Below are positions 255-37,911 of a DNA stretch of 37,978 bases, in pieces. The first letter of the stretch is position 1, and each line of letters opens with the position of its first letter. This DNA is from Candidatus Firestonebacteria bacterium RIFOXYD2_FULL_39_29 (GTDB lineage Bacteria > Oederibacteriota > D2-FULL-39-29), in assembly GCA_001778375.1 (NCBI GenBank), contig MFGV01000020.1:1-37978 (forward strand), in the 5' to 3' direction. The position numbers were made by a program, and so were the translations under genes. The notes below the pieces were generated by a model. It saw only the letters and a list, made by a program, of their open reading frames with translations. It was not told where the DNA came from and did no database searches.

Positions 255-425
255 AAAACCATGAACCATTTAAGACTTCAGGTTCGGTACTGCACCCGAA
301 CGTAGCGAGTGGTACAGGAGCCTGGTCGCAGGCACCTGGGTGGGCAGTCTATAACACTTGCGTGGTGAGACCTCTCCTAATGCGGGGCCACCAAAGCTTT
401 GTGGCGGAAAAGAAAAAGGAAAAAT
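255..425 (+). other. GC-rich structured leader, possible H-type pseudoknot or cis-regulatory RNA
   Basis: The 171 bases between the PorV-like gene and the first giant gene hold a compact GC-rich block: by hand count 77 of 127 bases from 281 to 407 are G or C, far above the AT-rich surroundings. Stem 282-287/296-301 (GTTCGG/CCGAAC) has an 8-base loop. That loop can pair with 309-314 (TAC+CAC with GTGGTA, two-base bulge), which makes an H-type pseudoknot. Next comes hairpin 315-338: a 10-pair stem with one A-A mismatch and a GTCG loop. Hairpins 363-367/389-393 and 387-405 follow; they overlap and exclude each other, the second ending just before the ribosome binding site AAGGA at 416-420. I could not match it to a known riboswitch class. 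It could be a structured 5' leader or a small RNA. Confidence 0.55.
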
Positions 426-17600: not shown

Positions 17601-20600
17601 TACGTGCTGATAATATAAGTGTTAATATTTATGGTACTGTCTATACTGGCTCATGTTCGAGTTTGATTACAATACAAGGCATAAAAGCAGGGAGCATTGC
17701 TGTTAATGGAGATTCACCTGTAGCAAAGGGCGGTACTGGAGGCGTGAGAGCAAAAGTATATAGGACAGATGGGTCGGTATTTACAGTAGCCGGAATGGGA
17801 ATTTCTTTTTCAAAAACATCCGGAGTAGGTTCAGTAAGTTCTGCAGGAACTACAGACAGTAAAGGAGAGGCTGCAGCTGTTTTTACTGCGGGAAATACCG
17901 CGGGTGACTCGGTTATAAACGCAGCTGCTTCGGGAGTTTCAGGTCAAACTACAATAAAAGTAGTGGATGTTTCGGCTATAGAGGCAACGGCAACACCGGT
18001 GATAATTTTGACAAATTCCGGAGGATCCGAAATAAAAGCTCAAATAAAGGACGCTAACGGGTATCCTGTAAAAGGAGCGGATGTTTCATTTAGTTTACCG
18101 ATAGGAACAGGAAATTTTACTTTAAATTCAGGGGCTACAGATATTTTAGGTAATATTAAGACAATGTTTAGCAATACTGCAACAGTCGGAGACAATGTTA
18201 TAACTATTAGCTCAGGGGCTGCGACTAAAAATCTGACGATTAAAGGGATTGATAATGTAACCGGCGGAAAACTAAAGCTGACAGTTCCTGCAAACATGTT
18301 CTATTTAGGTGCCTCTTTAGTATATTCTCTTCCTGTAATTAATAATATATCTGTTCAAATCGTTAATGGTAATGGAGAAGCTGTGGGTGTTTCAGGGATG
18401 GCAATAACAATAAAAGCAACCGGAGGTGCGTTTCAATATTATAGCAGTACTGTTGTTACCACAACTGCATTAACAATTGCTGCAAATACATATGGTAAGG
18501 TTGATTTGATAGGAGCCGGATTAAGTAAACTTAATTTTTATCCTGTTTTAGGAAATAATACAATAACGGCCTCTGCAACCGGATGTACTCCTGTATCAGT
18601 AATAGTAAATGGTATTTCAACTAATCCGTATTTATTAGAGCTAAGTTCAGATCCTTCGAGTATTAAACCTTCAAGTTCAGTCAAAGTAACAGCAAAAATA
18701 ACATCAGGAGGAGTGCCTTTTATAGGGGCAAGTGTAGCTTTTAGTCTTTCAAGCACCGGAGGAGGAAGTTTATCTTTGATTAGCGGTGCTACAAATGATA
18801 ATGGTGAGTTAAGCTGCAATCTGTTTTCCACTTCGAGCCAGACGATGAGTTATGTTGTAGTTGCGACAAATAGTGATTATAGTTTGTCGGCTAATTCAGG
18901 GATCCCGACAGCCTCTGCATCCGTTGAAAGTTTTGGAATAGAAACTCCTGAGAGTGCGGTTGTAAATCAGGGATTTGCTCTTAAAATTAAAGCGTTGGAT
19001 TCGAACGGGTTTTCTCCAATTATAACAAGTCCGGTAACCGTGACAATAAGCGCGGTCTCTGCTTCAAATGTAACTGTTATGGGCAGCGGTACGTTGAACT
19101 TAACAATAGCGACTATAATAAATAATATAGACAGCAGTGTAAGTTTAACAAATGTGACATATACAGCAGCTGAAGATATAATGCTAAAGGTAACAGGCGC
19201 AGGGAAATCAAGTTTAAGCCCGTTAATGTCATTTACCAAAACAGCAAACAGTATAGATCTGACGGCGATACCAAACGGAAGCATCGCCGGATATGCCGTT
19301 ATAATACAAGGTATAATAAAAGATATAGACGGTAAAGGAGTATACAACAAAGTAATAAGTATTGGCTCAACGGGCGGAACCTTAATTACGAACAGTTGTG
19401 TAAGCGACACAGATGGTAAATTTGGAGTATTACTGACAACTCCCGGCACAGCCGGTTTAACTACAGTAACTGCAAATTGCGGGGCAATAATTGGTACAAC
19501 AATAGTAACAACAACGAACTTAATTACAACGTATACTGTAACTGCGCCTGCAACCGGGGATACAAACGGATTCCCGATGACAATAACCGCAAAAGACAGC
19601 AGCGGGAATGTAGTGAAAAGTTCAACTACAGTGGCTCTTGGAATAAAAACAGGGACAGGCACAATAGGTATAACCTCTGTAAGATTAACAGATGGACTGG
19701 CAAGTTTTACACAGACGTACAGTAAAGCGGAAGGAGGAGTAGTAATAACCTCTGCGGATGCAAAGAACATACCCGGAACAAATGTAACTATCACAATGAC
19801 CAACAGCTTCCCTCAAGTAATAAGTTTAGCTCCTGTCGGCGTATCAAATATAACAGGCGGAACAATACAAATAACCGGAAAGAACTTCTTTGGCGGAACA
19901 GCAAGCAATAATGTAACAAGTATAAAATTAAATGATACAGGAAGTACTGTATTGTCAGGATACACAGTAACAACTGATACAAGTATAGTGAATGTTGTTA
20001 TTCCGACAAAAATAAAAGCAGGAAGTTATGATGTTTTGGTAACTACCTCAAAAGGTACGTCTACAGGTGGGGTGAAAGTAACTATAACGACATCTGTTCC
20101 TGTTTTAACCTCAATTACACCAAATAGTTGTGTGGCGGGAGAAACAAAGACCATCTCAATAGCCGGAACAGGATTCTTTGGCGGAACAACGAGCAGTGAT
20201 GTGAGAACATTAAAGGTTGGAACAACGACTATAACTACTGCATACACAGTAGCAGGAGATACAGCTATTACAGGAGTTATTATTCCAAATATATTAGCAG
20301 CCGGTACATATAACGTAGTAGCAATAACCGGAGGAGGAGATAGTGAAGGCGTTACATATACAGTTAATACGTATGTACCTGTCCCAACAGTCGCAAGCAT
20401 AACTCCAGCAAGCGGGTATAGACACGTATCAAATACGCTTAATATCTCCGGAAGCGGATATATGGGAGGAACAGGGTCAAACAGCGTAACATCGGTACAG
20501 TTGGTCGGAACAAGCACGGTAACGATAACGACATATAATGTGGTAAATGACGGATTGATACAGAATACAGTTGTTCCTGTAGGTATCGCGGGAGGAACAT

Positions 20601-22849
20601 ATAATTTAAAAGTAACAACTACAGGCGGCACAAGTTTAACAAATACAAATACGACGTATGTTGCACTGGTAGATGCAACCGTGCCGACAGTATTGACTGT
20701 TACAGCAAATGTATCGCAAGTAAAAGTAACGTTTAGCGAGGATGTGACCCTGTCAACAGTGACAAATAAAGCCAATTATACAATTCAGTCTCCGACAGGA
20801 ACTGGGAATAAGAATTTGTCCTCAGCGACAATTACTTATTCGGGAAATATGGTGACAATAGGGAATTTAAGTTTAACCGCGGATGCAACGTTTACAACAA
20901 CCGTCTCAAATGTGACAGATCTTGCAGGGAATACTATAGTTGGAAGCTCAGCCTCGGGAATAGTTCAAGGAACGGACTTAACAGCGCCGACTAACTGCAC
21001 TGTAGTAATAAACGGAGGTGCAGGCTTCACAGGAAGCACAAATGTAACACTAACACTGTCAGCAACGGATGCCAATGCAGGGATGGGAGCCGGGGCAGAA
21101 ATGCAGTTCAGCAATACCGGAACTACATGGGTAACGTATGCGTATGCAGCGACATCAACATGGACGCTGGCAACCGGGACAGGAACAGCGACAGTTTACG
21201 CCAAGTTCTCTGATGCGTTAGGGAACTGGACAAGCAGTAGTGTGACGAATATGATAGTACTTGATACAACCGGGCCGACTAATTGCAGTATAGTAATAAA
21301 TAATGGGGATTCATATACAAATAATACAACTGTGGCTTTAGCGGTATATGCAGAGGATGCGGATAGCGGAGTAAGCGAGATGCAGTTTATGAATGAAACA
21401 GGCTCCTGGTCAACGCCTGAAGCTTACGCCGTGACCAAGAGTTGGAATATAACAGGTGGAGATGGAGTAAAAACGGTAAACGTAAGGTATAAAGATAACG
21501 CAGGGAACTGGAGTGAGATCATATCGGGAACAATAACATTAGATACAACAGGACCTGTTGGAAGTATAGATATAAATAGCGGAGCAATATATACAAAGAG
21601 TACCATTGTAACATTAAACTTAAGTGCAACAGATCATTATAGCGGAGTGAATCAGATGCAGTTTAAGGAAGGAATAGGAAGCTGGAGCGTATTGGAAAGT
21701 TATGTAACAGGAACAAAAATACTTACAGTAACAAATACAGACGAATTGAAAACAATATCAGTAAGATACACTGATAATCTGAATAATATAAGCTTGTATA
21801 GCAAGGATATAAAGTTGTGTACGGTGACAAAACTTGAAGTGTTGTCACAGACGGAAATGGTAGCAGGAGAAAACATAGCAGTCACAGTAAGAGCAGTAAG
21901 AGAAGAAGGAGTAAACAGTGTTCTTGTCACGGGATATTTGAATAAGGTTGGGTTTAATGTGAAGGATGCTAATGCCGCAGCGTTACCGGATTATACATTT
22001 GCCGGAACAGATTCAGGAATAAAACAGGTGTTTTCAAACTTAAAGACATTGGGAGAGCAGGAGATAGAGGTTACAGATAAGGAGATAGACGGGATAACCG
22101 GAAAAGTAAAGATAAAAGTATATGCAGCGATAGCAGCAGACGGAACCAGCGGAACAATAATAACAAATACAGACGGAACAAGCGTAGAGATACCTGCGGG
22201 AGCATTTAGCGGGAACAGGCAGATAGGATTCAGTGTTACAGACCATCCAAGAATAGCAGGTGTAGGATACAGGTATAAGGAAACTGTAAAGCCGATAAGC
22301 CGAGATTTTGGAGAGTTAAATAAAACAACAAGCCCGTGGCAGTTAACAGGGATGACATTCAGTACTCCGGTAAAAATCTCCGTACCGTATAAACAAGAAG
22401 AGATAGGAGATGTGGATGAAAACAGTCTGAGGTTGTTCTATTATGATGAGTCATCTGGTAAATACATAATAGTCCCCGGCAAGCAGATAATAAGCGGCGG
22501 AAAGATAACCGCGCAAGTAAATCATTTCAGTACTTATAGAGTGCTTGGAACGTATGTAAGCAGTAATTTGAATAATGTGATAGCATATCCGAATCCGTAC
22601 AGACCAAACGCCGGAGCAGACGGCAAACTAAAGATAATAAACCTGCCGATAGACTGCACGGCTACTATATATAACATAGCGGGAGAAAAGGTAAGAGAAA
22701 TAAAAGAAGCAGATGAAGGAAACCTTGGCTGGATAGATTGGGACGGGAAGAATGAGAGCAGTGAGACAGTATCCAGAGGAGTTTATCTGTATGTGGTAAT
22801 AGCTCCGGATGGAAGCAGGAAAATAAGTAAAATCGCATTGATAAAATAA
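11696..22849 (+). CDS. Giant secreted multidomain surface protein 2, paralogue of the preceding gene
   Basis: 3,717 residues; ATG 11696 overlaps the upstream TGA as ATGA, suggesting translational coupling. No good ribosome binding site precedes this ATG. TTG 11753, six bases after AGGCGG, would leave a more ordinary signal peptide, so the start is uncertain. The signal core is (S-L-x)7, then TADNW. Domains match paralogue 1 in order: PQQ-like propeller, about 49-428; degenerate phosphoesterase fold, about 525-722 (YYYIHISSP, ITGD, VPGEIQCYG); FN3, about 1070-1178; about eleven Ig-like stalk units; three IPT/TIG domains (nt 19800-20670); SbsA-type Ig; three D-x-x-G-P Ig repeats; ZU5-like domain; FlgD-like/T9SS sorting domain from about 3627 (VIAYPNPY, DWDGKNESSE, RGVYLYV). 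The C-terminal quarter is very close to paralogue 1, the N-terminal head only about half identical. No terminator is evident after it. Confidence 0.9.
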   Translation: MSFDLNRHILSAKKRRRVILLKCLHSSLRSLFYLTSLCSLLSLSSLLTADNWTTAMHDAAHSGRSSDTLTPPFSLKYRAKVMPAYGPTNPVYDNDVVGFTISGGGASCVGAANIKTGKILWSGQYTNAVIATQDYYPAIYRGKYLSYAVSGDAGIYSVDLFSGQNRFHAAAFDASQVSSGDTYYNNFVFRMASFWPGDPGSYSIGGLTVNEDGTLNKIWTRIPGSDSNQDYPLKEGVSFPDLKSIPCVGNNVLYFQYTGEIHAADMLTGHSFWKTGNGKFVNSVAYENGKLYCPGSDSFFYCLDASNGSELWKFPVVGSGSPVVSNGIVFFRGGGSFYSLDANSGSLKWKFPANGHGYPAISGNIIYFSGESQLYGCKIDTANSNGEVIWQASIPNPETSFGTVIIGDNQLIAAGDNSYLYIYEANAAGSISLIQKPRIGSPVIVKDGENFSIECKGDPSVNGWLAKLRKYNTVANLTVISNVYDPLTCLWKLTAQVPAGANESLYDLEVTNNIGSDISVNSVKVVREIRSNYYYIHISSPLNNFGTLMDQFTLINPEFVVITGDTANNSSSYEYEKLINDLNSMEIPVFIVPGEIQCYGDRNSDSHKVYEKYLGPRYYSFNYGTHKYVGIDTTDSNNSIGNEQMEWLGNELNASANMKTVFYSKDRSNQMPAICDRYGVNCALSYDVEAPSSGVSLSGITPTLYLKTDKTNRLYYSTPFNGFRVVKVNNNKVVGYPVDPYWRYGKISVQYKLRDDGSAGNDGILKGNIAQVTNYLSSSFDNLRIKFLMPVASSYLSNNEIISKIDRGDGVNICKVKAAISGTSTVTAVKSSDIYIGDNSRPTSIITWYRDNSFINEVPRIIADPGSVTVTSISLGTGRYYMKIFVTDGKVPYITEQGGSNFVIGNTVSLDGSGTLYEGYCDLDSGSNCIVNVLVNGFSPELGKTVSVRRVPAYSPTMIYSAYTPAGIVISGNARYYWGSLDGPADFYYGSVPGDPYSSANAVFRIYRSIAGLNDWSMINQFINPGNQAYAFTWTDTTTSQGITYKYRLVTVGRTEVESSFSKEYDVTTGSPVFTNIARSNITSSSAVITWTTDISATTQVELSKIAFDGSTAFTFNNSILLPEDSALVTTHTVTITGLQPNTQYNTRILSRSGDGKINSFRYQPVALQGGNFTDASSFKTLANTGTTISSLKGVFECPVVFPGDKNNITISALDAAGKIVQITSYTNLTLKVLNGGGVFSDNSSQRNVTLYSGVLNIQDILTTGITEGLNSISASASGVTPITMNLISAYPDHYKVEAPAEIIAGENFIMKITAYSNVGETMILPVTITDKKLTLTALKADNSPATDSLWNDSASLFKDGVGLTKGIYNKAEQVKIKVLDAGGKTGVSSLINVKANESNKWKVTGELSKPVATIGDNITISGAILDVYENTVKTSGTIVTFSKLQGNGNLSNITAATDVNGVATTVLTVTDNIINVVELSSGSLDKGTVYVKTNDISSLNLTTSAGILKTGELTNVTIEAKDSGLNPVSGVEVDLSLVTGGGSLSANKVMTDANGQFVMQYLGSNVSQINTIRGQAAGSSITKDINITTVAGDLDHYKVDSSVAGAKAGENFTLTISAMDKCNNLINSINKGLSLSSVLSGYTDINGRGTLAIVTANIVNGTTSITNENYTRVEAIQIKAVDSNGVAGYSPSINIISNTTVSTINAVFKIGSVDITKVIKSKTVNILAILKDAYSNPLNGSILTLSANKGTLGSTKVTTDINGRAVAAFTVGDGICTVTMSSGSVQIQSVIEGMTPSQIVISPANPIICSGSGSLIITIKNSNGDGVPFASVGTSILTGTATFTPVTPADTDAQGVLKLQFNSINSSIDNVVRISCSGLTSDVTIRYFNNIFLFYSNMTSNQGLTGLAKQINASLHYSFFACSGQLVNFDVISGGGSLSSISAISDSNGDVTTNLTISTNEIDNIVRVRADNISVNIYGTVYTGSCSSLITIQGIKAGSIAVNGDSPVAKGGTGGVRAKVYRTDGSVFTVAGMGISFSKTSGVGSVSSAGTTDSKGEAAAVFTAGNTAGDSVINAAASGVSGQTTIKVVDVSAIEATATPVIILTNSGGSEIKAQIKDANGYPVKGADVSFSLPIGTGNFTLNSGATDILGNIKTMFSNTATVGDNVITISSGAATKNLTIKGIDNVTGGKLKLTVPANMFYLGASLVYSLPVINNISVQIVNGNGEAVGVSGMAITIKATGGAFQYYSSTVVTTTALTIAANTYGKVDLIGAGLSKLNFYPVLGNNTITASATGCTPVSVIVNGISTNPYLLELSSDPSSIKPSSSVKVTAKITSGGVPFIGASVAFSLSSTGGGSLSLISGATNDNGELSCNLFSTSSQTMSYVVVATNSDYSLSANSGIPTASASVESFGIETPESAVVNQGFALKIKALDSNGFSPIITSPVTVTISAVSASNVTVMGSGTLNLTIATIINNIDSSVSLTNVTYTAAEDIMLKVTGAGKSSLSPLMSFTKTANSIDLTAIPNGSIAGYAVIIQGIIKDIDGKGVYNKVISIGSTGGTLITNSCVSDTDGKFGVLLTTPGTAGLTTVTANCGAIIGTTIVTTTNLITTYTVTAPATGDTNGFPMTITAKDSSGNVVKSSTTVALGIKTGTGTIGITSVRLTDGLASFTQTYSKAEGGVVITSADAKNIPGTNVTITMTNSFPQVISLAPVGVSNITGGTIQITGKNFFGGTASNNVTSIKLNDTGSTVLSGYTVTTDTSIVNVVIPTKIKAGSYDVLVTTSKGTSTGGVKVTITTSVPVLTSITPNSCVAGETKTISIAGTGFFGGTTSSDVRTLKVGTTTITTAYTVAGDTAITGVIIPNILAAGTYNVVAITGGGDSEGVTYTVNTYVPVPTVASITPASGYRHVSNTLNISGSGYMGGTGSNSVTSVQLVGTSTVTITTYNVVNDGLIQNTVVPVGIAGGTYNLKVTTTGGTSLTNTNTTYVALVDATVPTVLTVTANVSQVKVTFSEDVTLSTVTNKANYTIQSPTGTGNKNLSSATITYSGNMVTIGNLSLTADATFTTTVSNVTDLAGNTIVGSSASGIVQGTDLTAPTNCTVVINGGAGFTGSTNVTLTLSATDANAGMGAGAEMQFSNTGTTWVTYAYAATSTWTLATGTGTATVYAKFSDALGNWTSSSVTNMIVLDTTGPTNCSIVINNGDSYTNNTTVALAVYAEDADSGVSEMQFMNETGSWSTPEAYAVTKSWNITGGDGVKTVNVRYKDNAGNWSEIISGTITLDTTGPVGSIDINSGAIYTKSTIVTLNLSATDHYSGVNQMQFKEGIGSWSVLESYVTGTKILTVTNTDELKTISVRYTDNLNNISLYSKDIKLCTVTKLEVLSQTEMVAGENIAVTVRAVREEGVNSVLVTGYLNKVGFNVKDANAAALPDYTFAGTDSGIKQVFSNLKTLGEQEIEVTDKEIDGITGKVKIKVYAAIAADGTSGTIITNTDGTSVEIPAGAFSGNRQIGFSVTDHPRIAGVGYRYKETVKPISRDFGELNKTTSPWQLTGMTFSTPVKISVPYKQEEIGDVDENSLRLFYYDESSGKYIIVPGKQIISGGKITAQVNHFSTYRVLGTYVSSNLNNVIAYPNPYRPNAGADGKLKIINLPIDCTATIYNIAGEKVREIKEADEGNLGWIDWDGKNESSETVSRGVYLYVVIAPDGSRKISKIALIK
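11774..11836 (+). repeat. 9-bp minisatellite, seven units, encoding the signal-peptide core (S-L-x)7
   Basis: Seven in-frame units of TCR-CTY-NNN type (one degenerate as TAC-TTA-ACT) encode S-L-R, S-L-F, Y-L-T, S-L-C, S-L-L, S-L-S, S-L-L. Together they form the hydrophobic core of the signal peptide of giant protein 2. The strand is almost purine-free. Read in reverse complement the units are RAAGYRA-NN, like the plus-strand units at 195-230. Confidence 0.8.
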
Positions 22850-27806: not shown

Positions 27807-30170
27807 TTAACAGCTCAATTGTAACTTGAATTTACCTGAAACTGAAAAATTTGCTGAAATGATATTATTTAACTTTTCCGTTTTGATTGTCCTTCCGTTT
27901 AATTTTAAACCTTTTCCGGATTTAATTCCGTTAAAGTTTACAGTATAATTCTTTGCCGAAATCTGGTTAGAAGTAAGAATTACATGTTTTTTTGAACGTG
28001 TTGCCGTGAAATTAATAGTTTCATAGTCGTCTTTGAATGTAAATATGGCTTTTTTTGCGCAATAAATATCCAGAGTTAGATTATTTTCCCGTTCGTCCTT
28101 AATAAATTCTTTTTCATCTCCTGAAACAATTATTGAGTCTTCTTTGATGAAAATGGGGATAATTGATAAAGGCGCGTAATAGTTTATATTAGACTCTCCT
28201 TTGTATTCTTTCTTGCTCCAGAAATCTATCCAATTGCCTTCAGGTAAATATATTGTTCTACGGTTTGATTCGTTAAATATCGGGGCCACAAGTAATTCTC
28301 TGCCGAATAAATACTCCAGATCAAGATTATAAACATTCGGGTCATCCTGATACTCTAAAACCAGCGGTCGCATCATAGGCAAGCCGGTTTTGCTGGATTC
28401 ATAAGCATATGAATAAATATAAGGAAGCAATTTGTATCTTAAATGAGCGTATTTTCTGAATATTTTTACAGTTTCGTCATCAAAATGCCAGGGTTCTCTC
28501 GGTGTTGTTCCATGGTATCTTGGATTTGAACAAAACATTCCGAATTGAAGCCATCGAATATAGAGCTCTTTTGTTGTACTGCCTACAAACCCGCCGATGT
28601 CGGAGCTCCAAAAAGGAACCCCTGATAATCCATAGCTTAAACCGGCCCTTATTTGCTGGGACATGGAAGAGAATTTTGTCTGAGCGTCTCCGCCCCACTG
28701 AAGCGGATATTTTTGAATTCCGGCATAACCGGAGCGTGCCCAGATTATACCTTTGCTGTTATGTTCTTTTGTAGCCTCAAATACTGTTTTACAATATAGT
28801 AGAGGGTAAAGATTATGCATTTCTTTCCCGTCCATACCGTTGAAATACTTGGCTTTTACAGGGGCCCATTCACCGTAGTCAGGCTTAAATACATCAGCGC
28901 CCATTTTAAGTATTGCCATATGTTTTTCTTTATACCATTTAACAGCTTCCGGATTTGTAAAGTCAATTAGCGTGAGTTTTTTATAGGGTTCCGGAACATA
29001 TTTGATATTTGGAGTTTCTACCATAGCCGGTTTGTAGTTTTTTCCAAACGAGGTCGACGTAGGAAAGTATTTTTTCTTCAAACCTTCTTTGTATGAATCC
29101 AGGTCTTTATGAATGTAAGGATTTTCCCAGAGAGATATTTTTATGCCTTTGCTATGCAGCCATTTTATAAAACCTTTTGGATCCGGGAAGGCTTCTTCGT
29201 CCCATTCGAATTCGCAGAAGGAATCTGTCAAATATTTTCTTTTTTTAAGCCAAAGCGGATCTAAGTGGATAACATCAAACGGAAGTTTTAATTCTTTCAT
29301 CTTCATAACTATTTCTTCCGCCTGTTTTCTGGTCTCGTACATGCATCTTGACATCCAGATACCAAAGGACCATTTTGGCGGGATCGGTGATCTTCCGGTT
29401 ATTCCGGTGTATTTGAAAAGAATATTTTTAAAAGTTGGTCCGTAAATAAAAAAGTAATCAAGATATTTTGACTCGACCTCAAATGAAGAAGTTATGGAAG
29501 AAGTCGCGCCAAAATCATAATTAATTTTATTTCCTGTGTTTATAAATATTCCATATCCTTGAGTGGAGATAAAAAATGGAATATTTTTGTATGTTGTATC
29601 GGTAGATGTGTTTCCCATAGGATCGAGTGCCCAGGATATGAGTTTTTTCCCGGATTTATTTATTGGCATAAACTTTTCCCCCAGCCCGTAAATACATTCC
29701 CCTGGATTTAGTTGAAATGTTTCCCTTGTTTTTACGATTTCATCATTATCTTTTGTGAAACCCATCGGGGGTATTACAAAGTTTTGATTATCAACGTCTG
29801 AATTATTTTGTTGATAGACCAGATTGCTTTCCCTGTCAAATATCGATATTTTAAACCTGTCTTTATTGATCAATACTTTTAAATTTCCGCAGCGGATATC
29901 AATAGTGTTTTTAGAATTATTGATCTTCATTTTGTGTTCAATTTGCTTCTCAAGATCCTCTTCGCAGCAAAGTATGTTCTTTAGTAACTTATTCCCGCTA
30001 TTTTGAGAGTACTTTATCCTGAAAATATCATTTTTGTAGAAGATCAATTGTATTGTTCCTGCAGAATATTCATCTTTTTTTGACAATTCAGTCCTGCATA
30101 TACAAGAAAGTGCTATTTTGCCTTTAGATTTCCTTAATAATGATACTTTTTTGATATAAAAATCCTGCAT
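27807..30170 (-). CDS. GH31 family alpha-glycosidase, probable alpha-xylosidase
   Basis: 787 residues; ATG at 30170, with GGAGG (plus-strand CCTCC 30178-30182) seven bases upstream. No signal peptide, so it is cytoplasmic. Domains: N-terminal beta-sandwich, about 1-255 (IYGLGEKF); (beta/alpha)8 barrel, about 265-590 (PPKWSFGIWMSRCMY, FDVIHLDPLW); C-terminal beta domains. The catalytic nucleophile is Asp431 in KPDYGEWAP and the acid/base is Asp495 in QWGGDAQTKF; both match the YicI-type GH31 pattern (KTDFGE and GGD), as does WSSDIGGF. GH31 alpha-xylosidases release alpha-linked xylose from xyloglucan oligosaccharides. Alpha-glucosidase or another GH31 activity cannot be excluded from motifs alone. 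The gene is transcribed away from the amidohydrolase operon from a near-consensus promoter. Confidence 0.88.
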   Translation of the reverse strand: MQDFYIKKVSLLRKSKGKIALSCICRTELSKKDEYSAGTIQLIFYKNDIFRIKYSQNSGNKLLKNILCCEEDLEKQIEHKMKINNSKNTIDIRCGNLKVLINKDRFKISIFDRESNLVYQQNNSDVDNQNFVIPPMGFTKDNDEIVKTRETFQLNPGECIYGLGEKFMPINKSGKKLISWALDPMGNTSTDTTYKNIPFFISTQGYGIFINTGNKINYDFGATSSITSSFEVESKYLDYFFIYGPTFKNILFKYTGITGRSPIPPKWSFGIWMSRCMYETRKQAEEIVMKMKELKLPFDVIHLDPLWLKKRKYLTDSFCEFEWDEEAFPDPKGFIKWLHSKGIKISLWENPYIHKDLDSYKEGLKKKYFPTSTSFGKNYKPAMVETPNIKYVPEPYKKLTLIDFTNPEAVKWYKEKHMAILKMGADVFKPDYGEWAPVKAKYFNGMDGKEMHNLYPLLYCKTVFEATKEHNSKGIIWARSGYAGIQKYPLQWGGDAQTKFSSMSQQIRAGLSYGLSGVPFWSSDIGGFVGSTTKELYIRWLQFGMFCSNPRYHGTTPREPWHFDDETVKIFRKYAHLRYKLLPYIYSYAYESSKTGLPMMRPLVLEYQDDPNVYNLDLEYLFGRELLVAPIFNESNRRTIYLPEGNWIDFWSKKEYKGESNINYYAPLSIIPIFIKEDSIIVSGDEKEFIKDERENNLTLDIYCAKKAIFTFKDDYETINFTATRSKKHVILTSNQISAKNYTVNFNGIKSGKGLKLNGRTIKTEKLNNIISANFSVSGKFKLQLSC

Positions 30171-30217
30171 GATAATTCCTCCAATTTAATTGAGCAAAAT
30201 TTTAATACTGTTTGTAT

Positions 30218-30246
30218 ATTATAAAGAATAATTAACAAAATATCAA
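30218..30246 (-). promoter_or_regulatory. Sigma70-type promoter for the GH31 gene
   Basis: On the minus strand, TTGATA (plus 30241-30246) and TATAAT (plus 30218-30223) are separated by exactly 17 bases. Expected start of transcription is near 30211, giving a leader of about 40 bases. One mismatch to consensus in total. Confidence 0.7.
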
Positions 30247-30336
30247 TAAATACTTAAGTTTCAATGTCTTTCCAATGGTACTATTTATCCGGTTGTTTGA
30301 AATAAAATATCTGTTGTTTTATTCGCTGTCTGAATT

Positions 30337-30345
30337 TGCTATAAT
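30337..30345 (+). promoter_or_regulatory. Extended -10 promoter for the amidohydrolase operon
   Basis: TGC-TATAAT is an extended -10 element (TGnTATAAT). The -35 is weak (TTTTAT at 30317-30322, 17-base spacer). It lies 30 bases before ATG 30375, so the leader would be short. It is back-to-back with the GH31 promoter. Confidence 0.55.
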
Positions 30346-30374
30346 CTTTTAAATTCGAAAATTTGGAGGTCTAA

Positions 30375-31163
30375 ATGGATATAGAAATTATTGATACTCA
30401 CTGTCATGTCGAACCGTGGTTTATGGACTTAAAGACGGAAAAAGTTGATAAAGATGCGTTTAAAAATATATATAAGGGATGCCGCCATAAAACCAGACTA
30501 TGTGTTGCCTCAACAGGCGGTAACCCGGTTTTAGTCAAAATGGGAAATGTTGCTGCAGTTCACAGACTGGCAAAGTTGTTGGGGCCTTTTCCTGAAAAAT
30601 TTATACTCCAATCAATGGTTAATCCTCATGATAAAGAAGGCGCGCTTCAAGCTATTGAGATCGGGGTAAAAAAATATGGTTTTAAAATGGTGGGAGAGTT
30701 AGTTCAGTATATTCATCATTGGCAGACAGATGGCCGTGAGATCCTTCCCGTTATACAGAAAGCAATTGATCTTGATGTTCCATTAATGTTCCATTCCGGT
30801 GATGTTTTTCATTGTGAAGGTGTTGCGCATATAGCTTATAAATTTCCCAGAGCAAGGATAATTATAGCTCACTGTGCCGCAGGTCGTGACTGGTACAGAG
30901 GAATTGTTACTGTTAAAGAATATTCAAATGTTTCAATAGAAATTATGAGCGGTAATGCAGAGCAAATAAAAGCGTTGATAGAATTAGTGGGACCAAACAG
31001 AATAACTTTTGGTACTGATTTTTGTGTTGATTTGGACCCTGCCAGAAGATATACACCCGGAAATGGTTTGCTGGATTGTCTGGAAAAAATGAAACTTTCT
31101 GATAAAGTTATAGCAAGTATTTGTTCCGGTAATGCGAAGAATATATTAAAATTGGAGGACTGA
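30375..31163 (+). CDS. Metal-dependent amidohydrolase (Amidohydro_2 type TIM barrel)
   Basis: 262 residues; ATG 30375 preceded by GGAGG at 30365-30369. The pattern is that of small cytoplasmic amidohydrolase-2/TatD-like hydrolases: His9-x-His11 in IIDTHCHVE, Glu108 in KMVGELVQY, His140 in LMFHSGD, His166 in IIIAHCAAG and Asp215 in ITFGTDF. These supply the usual metal ligands and catalytic Asp, and all appear intact. No signal peptide. Members hydrolyse lactones, amides or decarboxylate aromatic acids; the substrate cannot be told from sequence. It is the first gene of a tight operon (two bases to the next gene), and its neighbours suggest a carbohydrate-derived lactone or amide. Confidence 0.8.
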   Translation: MDIEIIDTHCHVEPWFMDLKTEKVDKDAFKNIYKGCRHKTRLCVASTGGNPVLVKMGNVAAVHRLAKLLGPFPEKFILQSMVNPHDKEGALQAIEIGVKKYGFKMVGELVQYIHHWQTDGREILPVIQKAIDLDVPLMFHSGDVFHCEGVAHIAYKFPRARIIIAHCAAGRDWYRGIVTVKEYSNVSIEIMSGNAEQIKALIELVGPNRITFGTDFCVDLDPARRYTPGNGLLDCLEKMKLSDKVIASICSGNAKNILKLED

Positions 31164-31165
31164 TT

Positions 31166-32878
31166 ATGAGCATTGATGATATAAAACAAATGATGATAAG
31201 AATACAAGAAAAAACACCGGATGAAGTTTTTAATAATATTAAAAAGGAAATGTTGAATGTTGGACCGGAATCCATTAAGTTTGCTCTTTCTTTCCCTGGT
31301 ATGTTGATCACACCCGGTATCAGGTGGGGGGTCGTCAGATTAGCTCTAAAAATGCCTGAAAAAGAAATTATACCTATATTTATGGATGCTCTTTCCACTA
31401 CCGACTGGAGATTAAACCAGATGGCAAAAGACATTTTTCATGCTCTTGGTATTGGGGCAACTGATGCGTTGGTGGAAAATCTTAAAAGATGTAAAGTAGC
31501 CTGGGGTAAAGTTCAAACCTTGTACTGCTTAAATAGATTAGCAGATCCATATTCAACACTGAGGATTGGTGACAAAACATTAATACCTTATATTATAAAA
31601 GCAGTCAAAGATCAATCTGAAGAAGTAAGAAATATGGCAATAGAAGTTCTTTCTAAATCAGAGGCTTTTGAAGCTGAAGCTGTAATAGTAAAATGCATCA
31701 GCGATAATTCTAAAACAACAAAATTAGAAGCAATAAAAGCATCCAGAAGGCTGCGGCTTAAAAAGGCTGTACCGGAATTGATCAAAATATTAAAAAATAA
31801 AGATCCCGAGCTGCGTGCGGAAGCCATATATGCGCTGGATAGAATTGGTGACAGCGAAAAAGCTATATACATAAGACCCCTTTTAAAAGACAAGGATTCC
31901 TATGTCCGTTGGTGTACCGTAAAAGCATTGAAGAGTGTATGGCAGGATGAGAACATTAAAGCTTTGACGGAAGCTGTCGGCGATAAAGATACATCTGTAG
32001 CTGTTGCAGCCTTGGAAGTGATTGCTTTAAAAGCAGCGCATAAAGCTATGGGTGTTATAGAAAAGGCTGCAAAGAGCAAAAATAAAAGCGTAAAAAATAC
32101 GGCAGAATATTACAGGCAAAAAGTATATGTAACAAAGAATATAATAATTGATGAACTTAAAAGAGTTGGTTTAAAAAAAGGTGACAGTGTTTTAGTTCAT
32201 AGCTCATTAAGTAAATTGGGATATGTCGAAGGCGGAGTTGAGAAAGTTATAGACGCATTGCTTGAAACAGTAAATGCCCCTGAACAAGGAACGGTATTTG
32301 TCCCGACTATTACAGGTACTGTTAAGATGAGTAAAGATGATCCGCCTGTTTTTGATCCGATCAATACTCCATGCTGGACAGGGAAAATACCGGAAACTTT
32401 CAGGCTGAGGGTGGAAGCAAAAAGGAGTTTACACCCTTCTCATTCAATTGCTGTTATAGGTAAGCTTTCAGATTATTATATTAAAGATCATGAGAATTCA
32501 CCTACGCCTTGCGGGAAAAACACACCTTACTGGAGACTCGCGGAACAGAACGGATATATTTTATTTTTGGGTGCTGACTTAAGGAGCTGTACTTTTTTGC
32601 ATACCTTGGAAGAGTTAGCCGGCTGCAAGTATCATATGCAGAAAGATAGGGTTAAAGCTAAGATAATAGTTAATGGAAAGGCAGTTAACAAAGAGATGTA
32701 TTTGCATCAGTGGGGAACACCCAGGGATTTTACGAAAATAGAACCGATGCTCTTAGAAAAAGGTATTATGAAAAAAGGTAAAATTGGAAATGCAGAGGTC
32801 AGATTGGTTTCGGCAAAAGGTCTTGCAACGGCATTACTGCCTATAATGAGAAAAAATAAAAAGTATTTGATCAAATAG
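31166..32878 (+). CDS. HEAT-repeat / AAC(3)-family N-acetyltransferase fusion
   Basis: 570 residues; ATG 31166, GGAGG at 31154-31158 inside the end of the preceding gene. Residues about 60-315 are HEAT/PBS-lyase-type helical repeats spaced about 30 residues apart (LIPYIIKAVKDQSEEVRNMA, AVPELIKILKNKDPELRAEA, YIRPLLKDKDSYVRWCTVKA). Residues about 325-570 are a full AAC(3)-type acetyltransferase domain: LKKGDSVLVHSSLSKLGYVE, GTVFVPT, RSLHPSHSIAVIGK (423-427 HPSHS), YILFLGADLRSCTFLHTLEE. AAC(3) enzymes use acetyl-CoA to acetylate an amine on an amino sugar. Non-resistance homologues in polysaccharide loci are common, and nothing here marks antibiotic resistance. The HEAT array may bind a partner protein. 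The fusion is unbroken, with no internal start preceded by a good ribosome binding site noted between the parts. Confidence 0.82.
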   Translation: MSIDDIKQMMIRIQEKTPDEVFNNIKKEMLNVGPESIKFALSFPGMLITPGIRWGVVRLALKMPEKEIIPIFMDALSTTDWRLNQMAKDIFHALGIGATDALVENLKRCKVAWGKVQTLYCLNRLADPYSTLRIGDKTLIPYIIKAVKDQSEEVRNMAIEVLSKSEAFEAEAVIVKCISDNSKTTKLEAIKASRRLRLKKAVPELIKILKNKDPELRAEAIYALDRIGDSEKAIYIRPLLKDKDSYVRWCTVKALKSVWQDENIKALTEAVGDKDTSVAVAALEVIALKAAHKAMGVIEKAAKSKNKSVKNTAEYYRQKVYVTKNIIIDELKRVGLKKGDSVLVHSSLSKLGYVEGGVEKVIDALLETVNAPEQGTVFVPTITGTVKMSKDDPPVFDPINTPCWTGKIPETFRLRVEAKRSLHPSHSIAVIGKLSDYYIKDHENSPTPCGKNTPYWRLAEQNGYILFLGADLRSCTFLHTLEELAGCKYHMQKDRVKAKIIVNGKAVNKEMYLHQWGTPRDFTKIEPMLLEKGIMKKGKIGNAEVRLVSAKGLATALLPIMRKNKKYLIK

Positions 32879-32893
32879 GAGCAAATATTCCTC

Positions 32894-35092
32894 TTGAATG
32901 TAAAAGCAGGTAAAGATATAAAATTATTGCGGTCTAAAAAGCGGATTTATCCGCTATTAAAGAGAATAAAATCGGGAATTCCCGGACTGGATAAAATGTT
33001 CCGTGGCGGTGTTTTTAATGGTAATATTGTATTGGTTGAGGGTGATCCCGGAGCCGGAAAAACTGTATTAGGTTTACAGTTTATTTTAGAAGGCCTAAAG
33101 TCAGATGAAAGTTGTATCTATATTTCTTTTATGGAAGACCCATCTAGAGCACTTCAGTATTTTAACTTTTCAAAAGTAGATTTTACAAAATATATTAAAA
33201 ACCACCGGCTTTCTCTGATCCCTTCAGATTTGAAAAATATTAAAAATTTAAGCAAGCTGCTTAAAAAGCTGCTGTCAACTTCTCATATTTTCAGAGTGTT
33301 TATAGATAATCTTCCTGTGCTAAGCAGGAAAGATAGATATGCTGAATATCTCCCTGAAATGGTAAAAATATTAAGAGAATATAATGTAACAACAGTTATT
33401 ACAACAACATTAAGTAAAGAATCCGGTGACCCTCGTCGAGAATCTACGATGATGCCGGAAATGGCCGATTGTATAATTAAAATGAAACAGATACAAAAAG
33501 AAAATAAGATAATCAAAACTCTTGTGATACTAAAGTCAAAAGGTATTGCCGGTGATTCAGACGTTAAACTGGTGGAAATAAATGAAAGTGGCATGAAAAT
33601 ATCGGGGAATTTTAAAAACAATGATAAACAGTTAGTTAATGCCAATACCGGAAAAGGATTAGAGGTTAATATACCTTTTGAAGAAGGAATACTAAGTAAA
33701 ATATTATCGGGATTTAAAGAAAAATACCCGGAAGTGACTATTGCTAGATCAGAAAATATTACTTCAGCTGTTTCCTACGTGCCGTATTCTACAGTTAATA
33801 ATATGGCGGTTGACGGGTTATTATTAAGTTTAGATACCTGTATAGATAAGGAACTCTTCTCCAGAGAAGCTTTGGATGCTTGTTCAATTGACGGGAAATT
33901 ATATGGGATTCCTGATGATTTTAATTGCAGGTGTCTGCTGTATCGCAAAGATTTACTTGAAAAATACAGTTTACCTGTTCCGGCTGATTGGGACAGTGTA
34001 ATCAGTACCTCGAAATTAATTCTTAAAAAAGAGAATAATCCGGATTTAACCGGAGTTTCATTTCCCTTTGGTGACGGGATTTCCCTGGTTGAACTGTTTT
34101 TAGAGCTTGTTTGGAGCAATGGTGCTGATATTTACGATTTAAAGGGTAATACTCTTCTGGAGGACATCAGGATATTAGAGGCTTTAGAACTTCTAAGAGA
34201 TCTTGTTTTAAAATATAAATTAACAAGTGAAGATATCTGGAACTTGTACAATAAAGGAATAAGAGAAAAAATGACAAATGGAAGTTTGATTTTCGGGTTT
34301 ACATATCCGGAACTTATAAAAGAACTTTATGATTCAAACTCTATTTTTAAAGATAAAATATGGTTTGCTCCTTTTCCTAAAATGTCTAAAGGGGAAATGG
34401 GGTATGCAGTAATTGCCGGGGCTGCATATATTATCCCTAAAAATATTAAAAATCAGGAAGCTGCTGTTAATTTTGTAAAATATGTTACCGGTAATGAAAT
34501 AGCAAAAGAAATAGAAGCGAGAGGAGGATGGCCCTTCCCTTCAAGAATAAGTTTTTGGGCGGATGAAGTCATTCTCAAGAAAAAACCATATTACGCCGAG
34601 GCTGGTAAAATCGCAAGATCGTGTGTTAACCCGTATAATAAAATAAAAAACTATAGGTTGTTTAGTTTGATCACACAAAAGGAGATAGTTAAAGTTCTAA
34701 AAGGCGAGCAGGAACCGCAAAAAGGTATAAAGATTTTAAATGATAAATTAAAAAAATTAAAGAGGTTTAAACTGCATCATAAAATAGTTGAAAAAACCAT
34801 GGCATACCTGGAAAATAATTTAGGAAAAACACATTATATAAAAAGCATAGCGCAAGAAGTAAAGATCAGCCCTAAATACTTGCAGATTATTTTTAAACTG
34901 GAAACAGGAATGTGTATTATTGAGTATCTGAATGAATTAAGAGTGAATAGAGCAAAACTTTTACTGAAAAATTACAAATATAATGTACGAGAAGCTGCTC
35001 TTAAAGTAGGATGTTCCAATATGACATATTTTGGAAGGTTGTTTAAAAAGAAAACCGGAATTTTGCCTAACGAGTACCGTTTAGAAGATTAA
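32894..35092 (+). CDS. KaiC-type ATPase / solute-binding protein / AraC-type DNA-binding fusion
   Basis: 732 residues from TTG 32894, the only in-frame start between the preceding stop and the ATPase core; AGGAG at 32877-32881 is 12 bases away. Residues about 20-245 are a RecA/KaiC-like ATPase: SGIPGLDKMFRGGV, Walker A GDPGAGKT at 50-57, CIYISFMEDPSRAL, Walker-B-like VFIDNL at 135-140, VTTVITTT. Residues about 255-622 resemble a family-1 extracellular sugar-binding protein: LSGFKEKYPEVTI, DGKLYGIPDDF (333-343), LLYRKDLLEKYSL, GYAVIAGAAYIIPKN, AVNFVKYVTGNEIA. Residues about 632-730 are an AraC-type double helix-turn-helix ending FGRLFKKKTGILPNEYR. No signal peptide or membrane segment, so the binding domain would be cytoplasmic. 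Likely a sugar-responsive regulator of adjacent genes; the role of the ATPase is unknown. Confidence 0.85.
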   Translation: MNVKAGKDIKLLRSKKRIYPLLKRIKSGIPGLDKMFRGGVFNGNIVLVEGDPGAGKTVLGLQFILEGLKSDESCIYISFMEDPSRALQYFNFSKVDFTKYIKNHRLSLIPSDLKNIKNLSKLLKKLLSTSHIFRVFIDNLPVLSRKDRYAEYLPEMVKILREYNVTTVITTTLSKESGDPRRESTMMPEMADCIIKMKQIQKENKIIKTLVILKSKGIAGDSDVKLVEINESGMKISGNFKNNDKQLVNANTGKGLEVNIPFEEGILSKILSGFKEKYPEVTIARSENITSAVSYVPYSTVNNMAVDGLLLSLDTCIDKELFSREALDACSIDGKLYGIPDDFNCRCLLYRKDLLEKYSLPVPADWDSVISTSKLILKKENNPDLTGVSFPFGDGISLVELFLELVWSNGADIYDLKGNTLLEDIRILEALELLRDLVLKYKLTSEDIWNLYNKGIREKMTNGSLIFGFTYPELIKELYDSNSIFKDKIWFAPFPKMSKGEMGYAVIAGAAYIIPKNIKNQEAAVNFVKYVTGNEIAKEIEARGGWPFPSRISFWADEVILKKKPYYAEAGKIARSCVNPYNKIKNYRLFSLITQKEIVKVLKGEQEPQKGIKILNDKLKKLKRFKLHHKIVEKTMAYLENNLGKTHYIKSIAQEVKISPKYLQIIFKLETGMCIIEYLNELRVNRAKLLLKNYKYNVREAALKVGCSNMTYFGRLFKKKTGILPNEYRLED

Positions 35093-35158
35093 AGATAAAT
35101 TAGACCAAATAGTCTATAAAAAATACCAATAAGTAGAATAATAACCCTGTTTAGTCGA

Positions 35159-35186
35159 TTGACAAAAATCTAATATTTGATATACT
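35159..35186 (+). promoter_or_regulatory. Sigma70-type promoter for the PL26-like gene
   Basis: Perfect -35 TTGACA (35159-35164), 16-base spacer, -10 TATACT (35181-35186). Start of transcription would be near 35193, leaving a leader of about 150 bases. A short inverted repeat TAGAC/GTCTA (35101-35105/35112-35116) lies upstream and could be an activator or operator site. Confidence 0.7.
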
Positions 35187-35192
35187 AATTAA

Positions 35193-35343
35193 TGTGTATT
35201 GTCTTAATGTATAGAAAAGTATAAAAATACAGATGGAGGTTTTCGGATTTTAGTTTATTAGAACAATATCTTGTATCAGCGGAATCCGATAGTTTTGTAA
35301 TCAGTGAAATCGCTTTTTAAAAAAGATAACCAGGAGAAATTCC
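35193..35343 (+). other. Untranslated leader with unused ribosome binding site and inverted repeat
   Basis: GGAGG at 35235-35239 has no start codon at usable distance. Directly after it TCGGATT (35243-35249) is matched by AATCCGA (35283-35289), a perfect 7-bp inverted repeat with a 33-base loop. The true ribosome binding site AGGAG is at 35332-35336, preceded by a T/A-rich run. Regulation in the leader is possible but not shown. Confidence 0.35.
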
Positions 35344-37911
35344 ATGATAAGAACTTGTATATTGTTTTTGTTGATAACTAAGCTTACTGTTTTGGCAGGA
35401 ACACCGCCGGTAGGAATAATCCCGGATATAAACAAATTAAAAATACCGGTAATTGAGCGGCATGCCCCGGTTGTTTCAAAAGATCTTTTGATGACTGTTG
35501 ATGGCGGGAATATAGGAGGTGCAAGAAAAAATTGGCCGGTAAGATTTGCGGTACCGATTGAAAGAGGGGAACTCAAAAACGCTGAAAATATTAATTTAAA
35601 AACTGCTGACGGGAAGAGTATAATTCCTGTTAGCGGAAAACCGACAGCTTTTTGGCCTGAAGGAGAAGTAAAGTGGCTGCTTCTTGAATTTATGGCTGAC
35701 CTTCCGGAAAACGGGCAGAGCAATTATGTTTTAACTTATGGAACAAGTGTTAAGCCTGTTTTGAAGAGTGATCTTAAAATAACGGAAGACAAAGGGAGTA
35801 TTTCAGTTTCAACCGGTGTTATCTCTTTCAATTTAACAAAAAAATCTGAATTTTTGTCGGATATTATTTCTAACGGCACCGGAATTACTCCCAAGGGTAA
35901 AGGTCTCAGATGTTTTCTTGACTATTCTGTCTCAGGTGTTAAAGCTCCTGAATCAATGTCTACTTATGCCAGAATGAATATACCTTTAACCGAAAGTGAA
36001 CCTTCCGTGGAAATTTTAAAGTCGGATTTTGCAGTGGATACAATATCCATAGTTGAGAAAAATCAAATTCAAGTTACCGTGCAGATTGACGGAAAATACA
36101 ATACCAGTACAGTCTCACATCCGGTCAGGATATATTTAACGGCCTATAATAATTCATCTTTAGTTAAAATAAGGCATTCTTTAATTTATGCGGGATTCAC
36201 TGTCAGAGATTATATAAAAAGTTATGGCTTTGATCTGTCCCTCTCCGGTGATATATCAAAATGTACTTTTGGCATTGAAGGCGGGAAACCGCTTGAAGGC
36301 ACCGGCTTTTGCCAGAGAGATGATCAAACATATATTTTAGACCGCAAAACACAAAAAGACGGGAGGTCTGACGGTTGGGTTAAGGCCGGGAATGTTGCCG
36401 TGGCGGTTGAAAATTTGTGGAAAAATTACCCCTCTACTTTTAGTGTTGCGCAAAATAATAAAGGAACCACTGTTTTAAAAACTTCGGTGTTTGGCCCTGA
36501 AGAAGGTGCCTTTTTGGATTTCAGATACAGGACAGGTAAGGTTTCTGCTGAGGTTTCGGCTATGCGCCCTGGTACAAAAGGGGCTGCGTCGTACTATGTG
36601 AGCACTCTTTCTGACGATTATGACGGAGGCGGCAGCAATGATGCCCGGGGTATTCAAAAAACTCATACTGTTATGTATGATTTTAATATTGGTAAAAAGG
36701 AAAGTACTTCTATTAATCTTTTAGGCAAAGCCCTTGATAAAATGCCGGTGATTTTTACTGATCCCGCGCATTTTGCCGACACCTCGGTGCTGGGTATATT
36801 CTCTGCATATGAAGCAGATCCTGAATTTCAGAAGATAAAAAATGCGGCAAGTGTTGTTTTTGACTGGGCGAGTTTTACACAGGATAAAAACCGTTGGTAT
36901 GGTTTTGTTGACAGCGGTGATTTGAACGCCTCTGCAAAAAAGCCTGACGGGGATAAGCTCCCTCATTATTTTGCGGGGGGGATAGGATGGAGCAGCGGGA
37001 ATCATTACGGTACGGCATTTTTAATTCATGCATTTTTGACTAAACAAAGAAAGTATATTGATTTTACTGCAAACTTTCTTAAACATAAAGTAGATTTTGA
37101 TTTTGAGCATATAGGCGGACAAAATGAAGGTGCGCTGCTTGGTGAATTTACAAGACATAATCAGGTTCATTGGAGAGGCGGAGGCGAGCCAAGACAGGCG
37201 CCGATAGCTGATATGATATTTGACTACTGGATCACCGGGGATAGAGTCGTATGGGACGGCATCACTTTGTCAATGGAGTGGCTTAATAAAGCTGCCTGGG
37301 GAAGATCGGCTATTTTGGATAAGACAAAATTAAATATGAGCTGTAAAGCTGGTGCAATGAACTGGCCTGCGTATCTTATGTGGGAAACGACCGGTGATCC
37401 AAAGTATATGTGGTTTGTTAAACCCTTTGCTAAAGCACTGGAAGATCTTTTGGATGCAGGTATTGGAATATCCTATCAGGAAGGCATAATTCCTGTAAGT
37501 GTTGAAGGAAGACCTGATATTTCAGGATATAGGGACGGCGGAGCTCCGGGGGGATATTTTTTTACGTATGATGCGCATAGTCCGTTAATTGCTTATGTAA
37601 ATTTAACAGGTGATAAAGATGTTACCAGGTCTCTTATTAAAACAGCCTATCTTTTAGAACAAGCGCCGATTAATTGCCCGCAGCATTATGATACTCTTGA
37701 CAGTTTTCTTGATTTTGTTTATGGAATAACCGGGGACAGGACATTCTTAGAGCCTATTTTAAACCAAAGAATAGCTCAGTTTATGGGGTTTAGAGGTGTA
37801 CCTAAGGAAGAATATACGACACAAACACTAATAAGCACATTGGGCAGATTATTTGAAGAAGGAACGAATAATATGGGTCTGGTAAGAGTTATAATCAAAA
37901 GATGTGTATGA
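35344..37911 (+). CDS. Secreted PcRGLX/YetA-like protein (PL26-type exo-rhamnogalacturonan lyase family)
   Basis: 855 residues; ATG 35344, AGGAG seven bases upstream. Signal peptide about residues 1-19 (CILFLLITKLTVLAG). N-terminal RIFT-barrel-like domain from about residue 45: NWPVRFAVPIERGELKNAEN, GKPTAFWPEGEVKWLLLEF. A middle beta domain follows (KTSVFGPEEGAFLDFRYRTG). The C-terminal alpha/alpha-barrel-like domain, from about 480, includes GWSSGNHYGTAFLIHAFL near 548 and FEHIGGQNEGALLGEFTRHN near 586. This layout is that of the PcRGLX/YetA family, whose studied fungal member is an exo-acting rhamnogalacturonan lyase. Substrate here is inferred, not shown. It sits beside the AraC-fusion regulator with its own promoter, a natural target for it. 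Confidence 0.75.
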   Translation: MIRTCILFLLITKLTVLAGTPPVGIIPDINKLKIPVIERHAPVVSKDLLMTVDGGNIGGARKNWPVRFAVPIERGELKNAENINLKTADGKSIIPVSGKPTAFWPEGEVKWLLLEFMADLPENGQSNYVLTYGTSVKPVLKSDLKITEDKGSISVSTGVISFNLTKKSEFLSDIISNGTGITPKGKGLRCFLDYSVSGVKAPESMSTYARMNIPLTESEPSVEILKSDFAVDTISIVEKNQIQVTVQIDGKYNTSTVSHPVRIYLTAYNNSSLVKIRHSLIYAGFTVRDYIKSYGFDLSLSGDISKCTFGIEGGKPLEGTGFCQRDDQTYILDRKTQKDGRSDGWVKAGNVAVAVENLWKNYPSTFSVAQNNKGTTVLKTSVFGPEEGAFLDFRYRTGKVSAEVSAMRPGTKGAASYYVSTLSDDYDGGGSNDARGIQKTHTVMYDFNIGKKESTSINLLGKALDKMPVIFTDPAHFADTSVLGIFSAYEADPEFQKIKNAASVVFDWASFTQDKNRWYGFVDSGDLNASAKKPDGDKLPHYFAGGIGWSSGNHYGTAFLIHAFLTKQRKYIDFTANFLKHKVDFDFEHIGGQNEGALLGEFTRHNQVHWRGGGEPRQAPIADMIFDYWITGDRVVWDGITLSMEWLNKAAWGRSAILDKTKLNMSCKAGAMNWPAYLMWETTGDPKYMWFVKPFAKALEDLLDAGIGISYQEGIIPVSVEGRPDISGYRDGGAPGGYFFTYDAHSPLIAYVNLTGDKDVTRSLIKTAYLLEQAPINCPQHYDTLDSFLDFVYGITGDRTFLEPILNQRIAQFMGFRGVPKEEYTTQTLISTLGRLFEEGTNNMGLVRVIIKRCV

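Follow-up and report, generated by a model that had tools for sequence, protein, structure and literature searches.

A KaiC-type ATPase, a solute-binding domain and an AraC domain in a single chain: a multi-copy family of putative sugar regulators

Btr, the bacillibactin regulator of Bacillus subtilis, carries an AraC domain together with a cytosolic binding-protein fold, which is of the iron-siderophore type and stands in a different domain order from that of the protein reported here. SgrR, the enteric regulator of sugar-phosphate stress, also joins a cytosolic helix-turn-helix (HTH) to a solute-binding-like domain. MalT, the STAND activator of the E. coli maltose system, consists of a STAND NOD ATPase, a TPR-like sensor and a LuxR-type HTH. 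In MalT the inducer drives both conversion of the closed ADP form to the open ATP form and multimerisation, and a sugar-driven, ATP-dependent assembly was proposed (PMC4381067). The archaeal KaiC-like signalling ATPases, including inactivated iKaiC and KaiC-REC fusions, likewise have KaiC joined to signalling modules, and some of their active sites are degraded; in the available part of the source (PMC5847659), no solute-binding protein (SBP) or AraC partner was seen.

The DNA analysed, referred to as the window, is a stretch of 37,978 nucleotides from the draft genome of Candidatus Firestonebacteria bacterium RIFOXYD2_FULL_39_29 (G000; 3.0 Mb, 93 contigs). It was found to carry a gene in which a KaiC ATPase, an SBP and an AraC domain are encoded as one protein. 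The openly readable literature disclosed no protein pairing KaiC with AraC, or with an SBP plus AraC, in agreement with the earlier note on this DNA, which knew of no described protein that adds KaiC to an SBP/HTH fusion. The gene and its parts are:

32894..35092, + strand, KaiC-SBP-AraC fusion protein, 732 aa, TTG start (open reading frame, Pfam and structure matches, 19 further copies)
32963..33604, + strand, KaiC-type RecA-fold ATPase domain, residues 24-237 (PF06745, E 2.2e-36; KaiC structures)
33041..33064, + strand, Walker A GDPGAGKT, residues 50-57, K56 invariant in the family
33134..33136, + strand, Glu81, at the site of the second residue of the KaiC catalytic Glu-Glu pair, the first being Met80 here (alignment)
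33305..33307, + strand, Walker B Asp138 (VFID) (alignment)
33656..34759, + strand, family-1 solute-binding domain with a shortened N-lobe and no signal peptide, residues 255-622 (PF13416/PF01547; alignments with TMBP, SmoF and MalE3)
34781..35086, + strand, AraC double HTH DNA-binding domain, residues 630-731 (PF12833, E 5e-18; AraC 2k9s; mostly pLDDT 83-94)

At a probability of about 0.55, the protein is read as a one-component sugar regulator of the cytosol, whose assembly depends on ATP and which would activate local carbohydrate genes.

All three domains exceeded the Pfam cut-off. The ATPase assigned in the earlier note, with its intact Walker A, was recovered as PF06745 at residues 25-237 (125.8 bits against a cut-off of 26.6), and residues 23-248 matched solved KaiC structures by sequence. 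The similarity of residues 255-622 to SBPs, which had been put forward for checking, was found with SBP_bac_8 (residues 288-547, 59.4 bits against 27, E 6.5e-16) and SBP_bac_1 (residues 302-537, E 8.7e-15), and about residues 321-629 matched the solved trehalose/maltose-binding protein 1eu8, SmoF 7nbz and MalE3 6dtq by sequence over about 310 residues. The fold is recognisable as a family-1 SBP, but it is not whole in the usual sense, as had been claimed, since the N-lobe near residues 285-300 is reduced and the window copy is about 10-35 residues shorter there than the congeneric paralogues. The domain is internal, C-terminal to KaiC, and lacks a signal peptide, as the earlier note had stated; no permease or ABC ATPase was found among the neighbours scanned within the window. 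TMBP, SmoF and MalE3 are secreted transport proteins, in contrast to the cytosolic, N-lobe-shortened and DNA-binding-fused domain seen here. The C-terminal AraC HTH was confirmed as HTH_18 (residues 652-729, 65.6 bits against 33.6) and by the match of residues 633-729 to solved AraC 2k9s. The predicted structure, built from a shallow alignment, had a mean pLDDT of 54.6 and is reliable for the HTH only.

Comparison with described systems separated the fusion from each of them. Like MalT, it is a single chain with a nucleotide-binding domain, a sugar sensor (here putative) and a C-terminal HTH, but it uses KaiC/RecA, a periplasmic-binding fold and AraC, and the two architectures are not of common descent; the best STAND NOD match, nSTAND3, scored 22.4 bits, under the cut-off of 27.2, and the KaiC match was far stronger. 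With Btr it shares the AraC domain and a cytosolic binding-protein fold; Btr, however, has no ATPase, and the NCBIfam Btr model matched the HTH only, at 48 bits against a cut-off of 900. SgrR differs in its HTH, in its SBP class and in having no ATPase, and its model was absent among the matches listed in the Pfam/NCBIfam profile search of the window protein. A PADLOC search returned a weak P-loop match only. Homology to KaiC could also point to the output protein of a circadian-like timer, a reading that is highly improbable: every copy of the fusion except one has a single KaiC domain, the circadian models PRK09302 and TIGR02655 scored far under their cut-offs (109 bits against 408 and 49 against 546), and KaiB gave no match above the cut-off in any of the eight genomes searched, that of the window included.

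The 732-codon frame contains no internal stop. An AGGAG lies at about 32877-32881, 12 bases 5' of the TTG start, and the first in-frame Met after it is residue 34, within the KaiC domain. A search of 45 genomes of the phylum for the three-part order gave 20 copies over six genomes: eight in the window's own genome, the seven others being on contigs C86, C34, C81, C38, C39, C25 and C57, seven in its congener G001, four in family f2 (one in G005, one with an internal stop in G006 and two in G008) and one in family f10 (G017). A second G017 copy extends past its contig end, so that the N-terminus is not covered. Most congeneric copies share 34-38% identity with the window copy, the one on C57 shares 28% and those from other families 21-24%; the copies are mostly 21-40% alike, with the domain order constant. 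The single uninterrupted frame of the earlier note thus stands. As the window's genome is a draft in 93 contigs, an assembly or binning chimera, or a chance read-through, might be suspected, but these explanations, together with a frameshift, are ruled out by diverged copies in the same order on separate contigs of six genomes, and their probability is practically nil.

The paralogue on C57 (L064:7989-10859, 956 aa) has two tandem KaiC domains followed by the SBP and AraC domains; both of its P-loops are intact and the catalytic Glu is gone from the second KaiC. C10 (L056:5713-5964) and C41 (L055:6239-6703) carry fragments of KaiC domains, akin to those of the family, that are interrupted by stops or truncated. 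They are probably remnants of lost copies and point to birth and decay within the family. Eight of the 13 SBP_bac_1 matches in the window's genome are these fusions, which are therefore not simply paired one to one with transporters. Single-chain fusions of an SBP to an ABC permease were also observed (L109:1363-3765, G000:C1:24381-26570 and frames of about 850 aa in G005 and G008).

Other genomes of the phylum encode KaiC and SBP as separate proteins, and some have KaiC-KaiC-REC. Families f3 and f9 have genes for double KaiC proteins, such as L031:712-2619; this one, the copy scanned, carries a receiver (REC) domain in the same chain, which shows that the phylum employs KaiC in further signalling fusions. 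A GTDB contig scan with the window protein gave SBP-type matches only, in Thermoanaerobacter and Turicibacter, which, being based on six exact peptides, is a weak negative. Viral contigs held no relative by full alignment or by the KaiC or SBP domain, and two AraC relatives, while 667 plasmid records matched with none covering 80% of the query. As far as searched, with weak scans outside the phylum, this multi-copy family is confined to one uncultured phylum.

Family f8 includes a genome, G014, with two complete SBP-AraC proteins without KaiC, showing that the SBP-AraC core can exist on its own. The SBP tree placed the three-part protein of f10 as sister to the short forms of f8 and f10 at full support; provided that the family has one origin, this points to a loss of KaiC in f8. 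All copies fell on one side of a branch with a support of only 51. The KaiC trees did not resolve the positions of f2 and f10, and a single clade for KaiC of the f2 and g1 versions was not rejected (p-AU 0.60); with these two values, separate origins of the two versions were not demonstrated.

All three domains are under purifying selection. In five close pairs dN/dS was about 0.02-0.26 (NG86) for every domain wherever dS could be estimated, several dS values being saturated, and one short HTH pair gave 0.38 by YN00. The orthologues C86 and G001-C167 are 80% identical in KaiC, 68% in the SBP and 82% in the HTH. Such a ranking would be expected if switch and output are conserved while the sensor, or ligand site, diversifies, though it is suggestive only, as the other pairs do not show this order.

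Of 19 KaiC domains aligned, 17 have an intact P-loop (GxxxxGKT; the exceptions are C39 and G001-C29), with the Walker A Lys invariant and the Thr near-invariant. The second catalytic Glu and the Walker B Asp are each present in 14 of the 19, and the complete triad of P-loop, catalytic Glu and Walker B Asp in nine, the window copy among them. As the P-loop is kept more than the hydrolysis residues, nucleotide binding appears more essential than hydrolysis, and, judged from these residues, binding seems to be the common property and hydrolysis optional. The decay of hydrolysis residues in about half of the copies has a precedent in archaeal KaiC-like proteins with inactivated domains (PMC5847659). 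Nearly all domains of the double-domain KaiC proteins of f3 and f9 retain the full set of ATPase residues.

These counts bear on a simpler explanation, that KaiC, with its nucleotide bound, acts as a scaffold or dimerisation module of an SBP-AraC sugar regulator and not as a switch, ATP serving only to stabilise the fold. The scarcity of full triads, the two altered P-loops and the KaiC-free proteins of G014 would fit such a role, which is nevertheless held to be somewhat unlikely, given the invariant P-loop Lys and near-invariant Thr, the three ATPase residues kept by the window copy, and the place of KaiC among the best-conserved parts of the orthologue pair above.

The surroundings of the fusion gene in the window are:

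27807..30170, - strand, GH31 glycosidase, alpha-xylosidase-like, divergent neighbour (NF007940, 593 bits against a cut-off of 606)
30375..31163, + strand, amidohydrolase (PF04909), first gene of the likely operon
31166..32878, + strand, HEAT repeats and an AAC(3)-type acetyltransferase domain, upstream gene, 15 bases 5' of the fusion gene
35344..37911, + strand, PcRGLX-like protein (rhamnogalacturonan lyase family), downstream neighbour

The amidohydrolase, HEAT-AAC(3) and fusion genes, separated by gaps of 2 and 15 bases, are likely one operon, and this is flanked by the GH31 gene and the rhamnogalacturonan-lyase-like gene. Given a sugar operon, the HEAT-AAC(3) protein seems likelier to be an amino-sugar acetyltransferase than a drug-resistance enzyme. 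Further upstream, 399-11699 and 11696-22849 encode adjacent giant proteins of 3766 and 3717 aa with a 4-base overlap and with PQQ-like, Ig-like and fibronectin-like domains. Regions 30180-30374 and 35093-35343, the flanking intergenic DNA that the earlier note had put forward for binding, shared no DNA motif above shuffled sequence.

Several copies, in several genomes, are surrounded by genes for plant polysaccharides or sugars. Each of the three f2 loci read has an FAD oxidoreductase gene 1 base 5' of the fusion gene, and GH28 is on the far side in both loci where that side is covered; the order in G005 is GH94, GH28, FAD oxidoreductase, fusion, GH28, BD-FAE esterase, GH141. A conserved small frame (MEKHGMFYGIGFGSAMAMIISYAHLHS...) is found 5' of the FAD oxidoreductase and fusion genes in L050, L052 and L077 (3/3 loci). 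In G001, the neighbours of the copies include a GH123-like protein (3 bases upstream), a polysaccharide deacetylase, and a xylose-isomerase-like together with an enolase-superfamily protein. Several copies adjoin housekeeping or unrelated genes (typA, a DEAD-box helicase, arg-type/amino-acid genes).

Such mixed neighbourhoods, the shortened N-lobe, and the variation between subgroups at residues 342 and 346, on the strand that precedes YRKD, would be compatible with general regulators with no tie to carbohydrates, the SBP sensing a peptide, nucleotide or phosphorylated metabolite, or having lost small-molecule binding and serving as a protein-interaction surface. The closest solved relatives, however, mostly bind sugars and carbohydrate loci recur in independent lineages, which makes this reading improbable.

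In the regulator favoured here, the SBP domain would sense an imported sugar or oligosaccharide, the KaiC domain would bind ATP and set the assembly state, ligand and ATP together would give an oligomer, possibly a ring, competent for transcription activation, and the AraC domain would bind promoter DNA of nearby carbohydrate genes. An ATP-bound assembly triggered by sugar and read out through an HTH is workable, because MalT shows it. The idea of an ATP-dependent switch tied to sugar sensing was already in the earlier note; we still infer it, now with the conserved P-loop, purifying selection and carbohydrate neighbourhoods in its support. Against the proposed regulator stand the housekeeping neighbours, the catalytic residues lost in many copies, the KaiC-free G014 proteins, the lack of a shared promoter motif and the low-confidence predicted structure.

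To our knowledge, KaiC-like ATPases are widespread and their role is mostly unknown outside the cyanobacterial clock. Here a covalent link joins KaiC to a plausible input, sugar, and to a plausible output, DNA, and the many natural variants, some with intact and others with decayed active sites, make the signalling role of the KaiC fold directly testable. More tentatively, these proteins may possibly constitute a transcription factor class of a new kind: KaiC, having evolved into an ATP-driven assembly switch, would control both the cytosolic sugar sensor and DNA binding by AraC, and the seven to eight copies in a genome would each respond to a sugar of their own. If true, a MalT-like logic of ATP-gated sugar regulation would have been invented independently from RecA-type parts.
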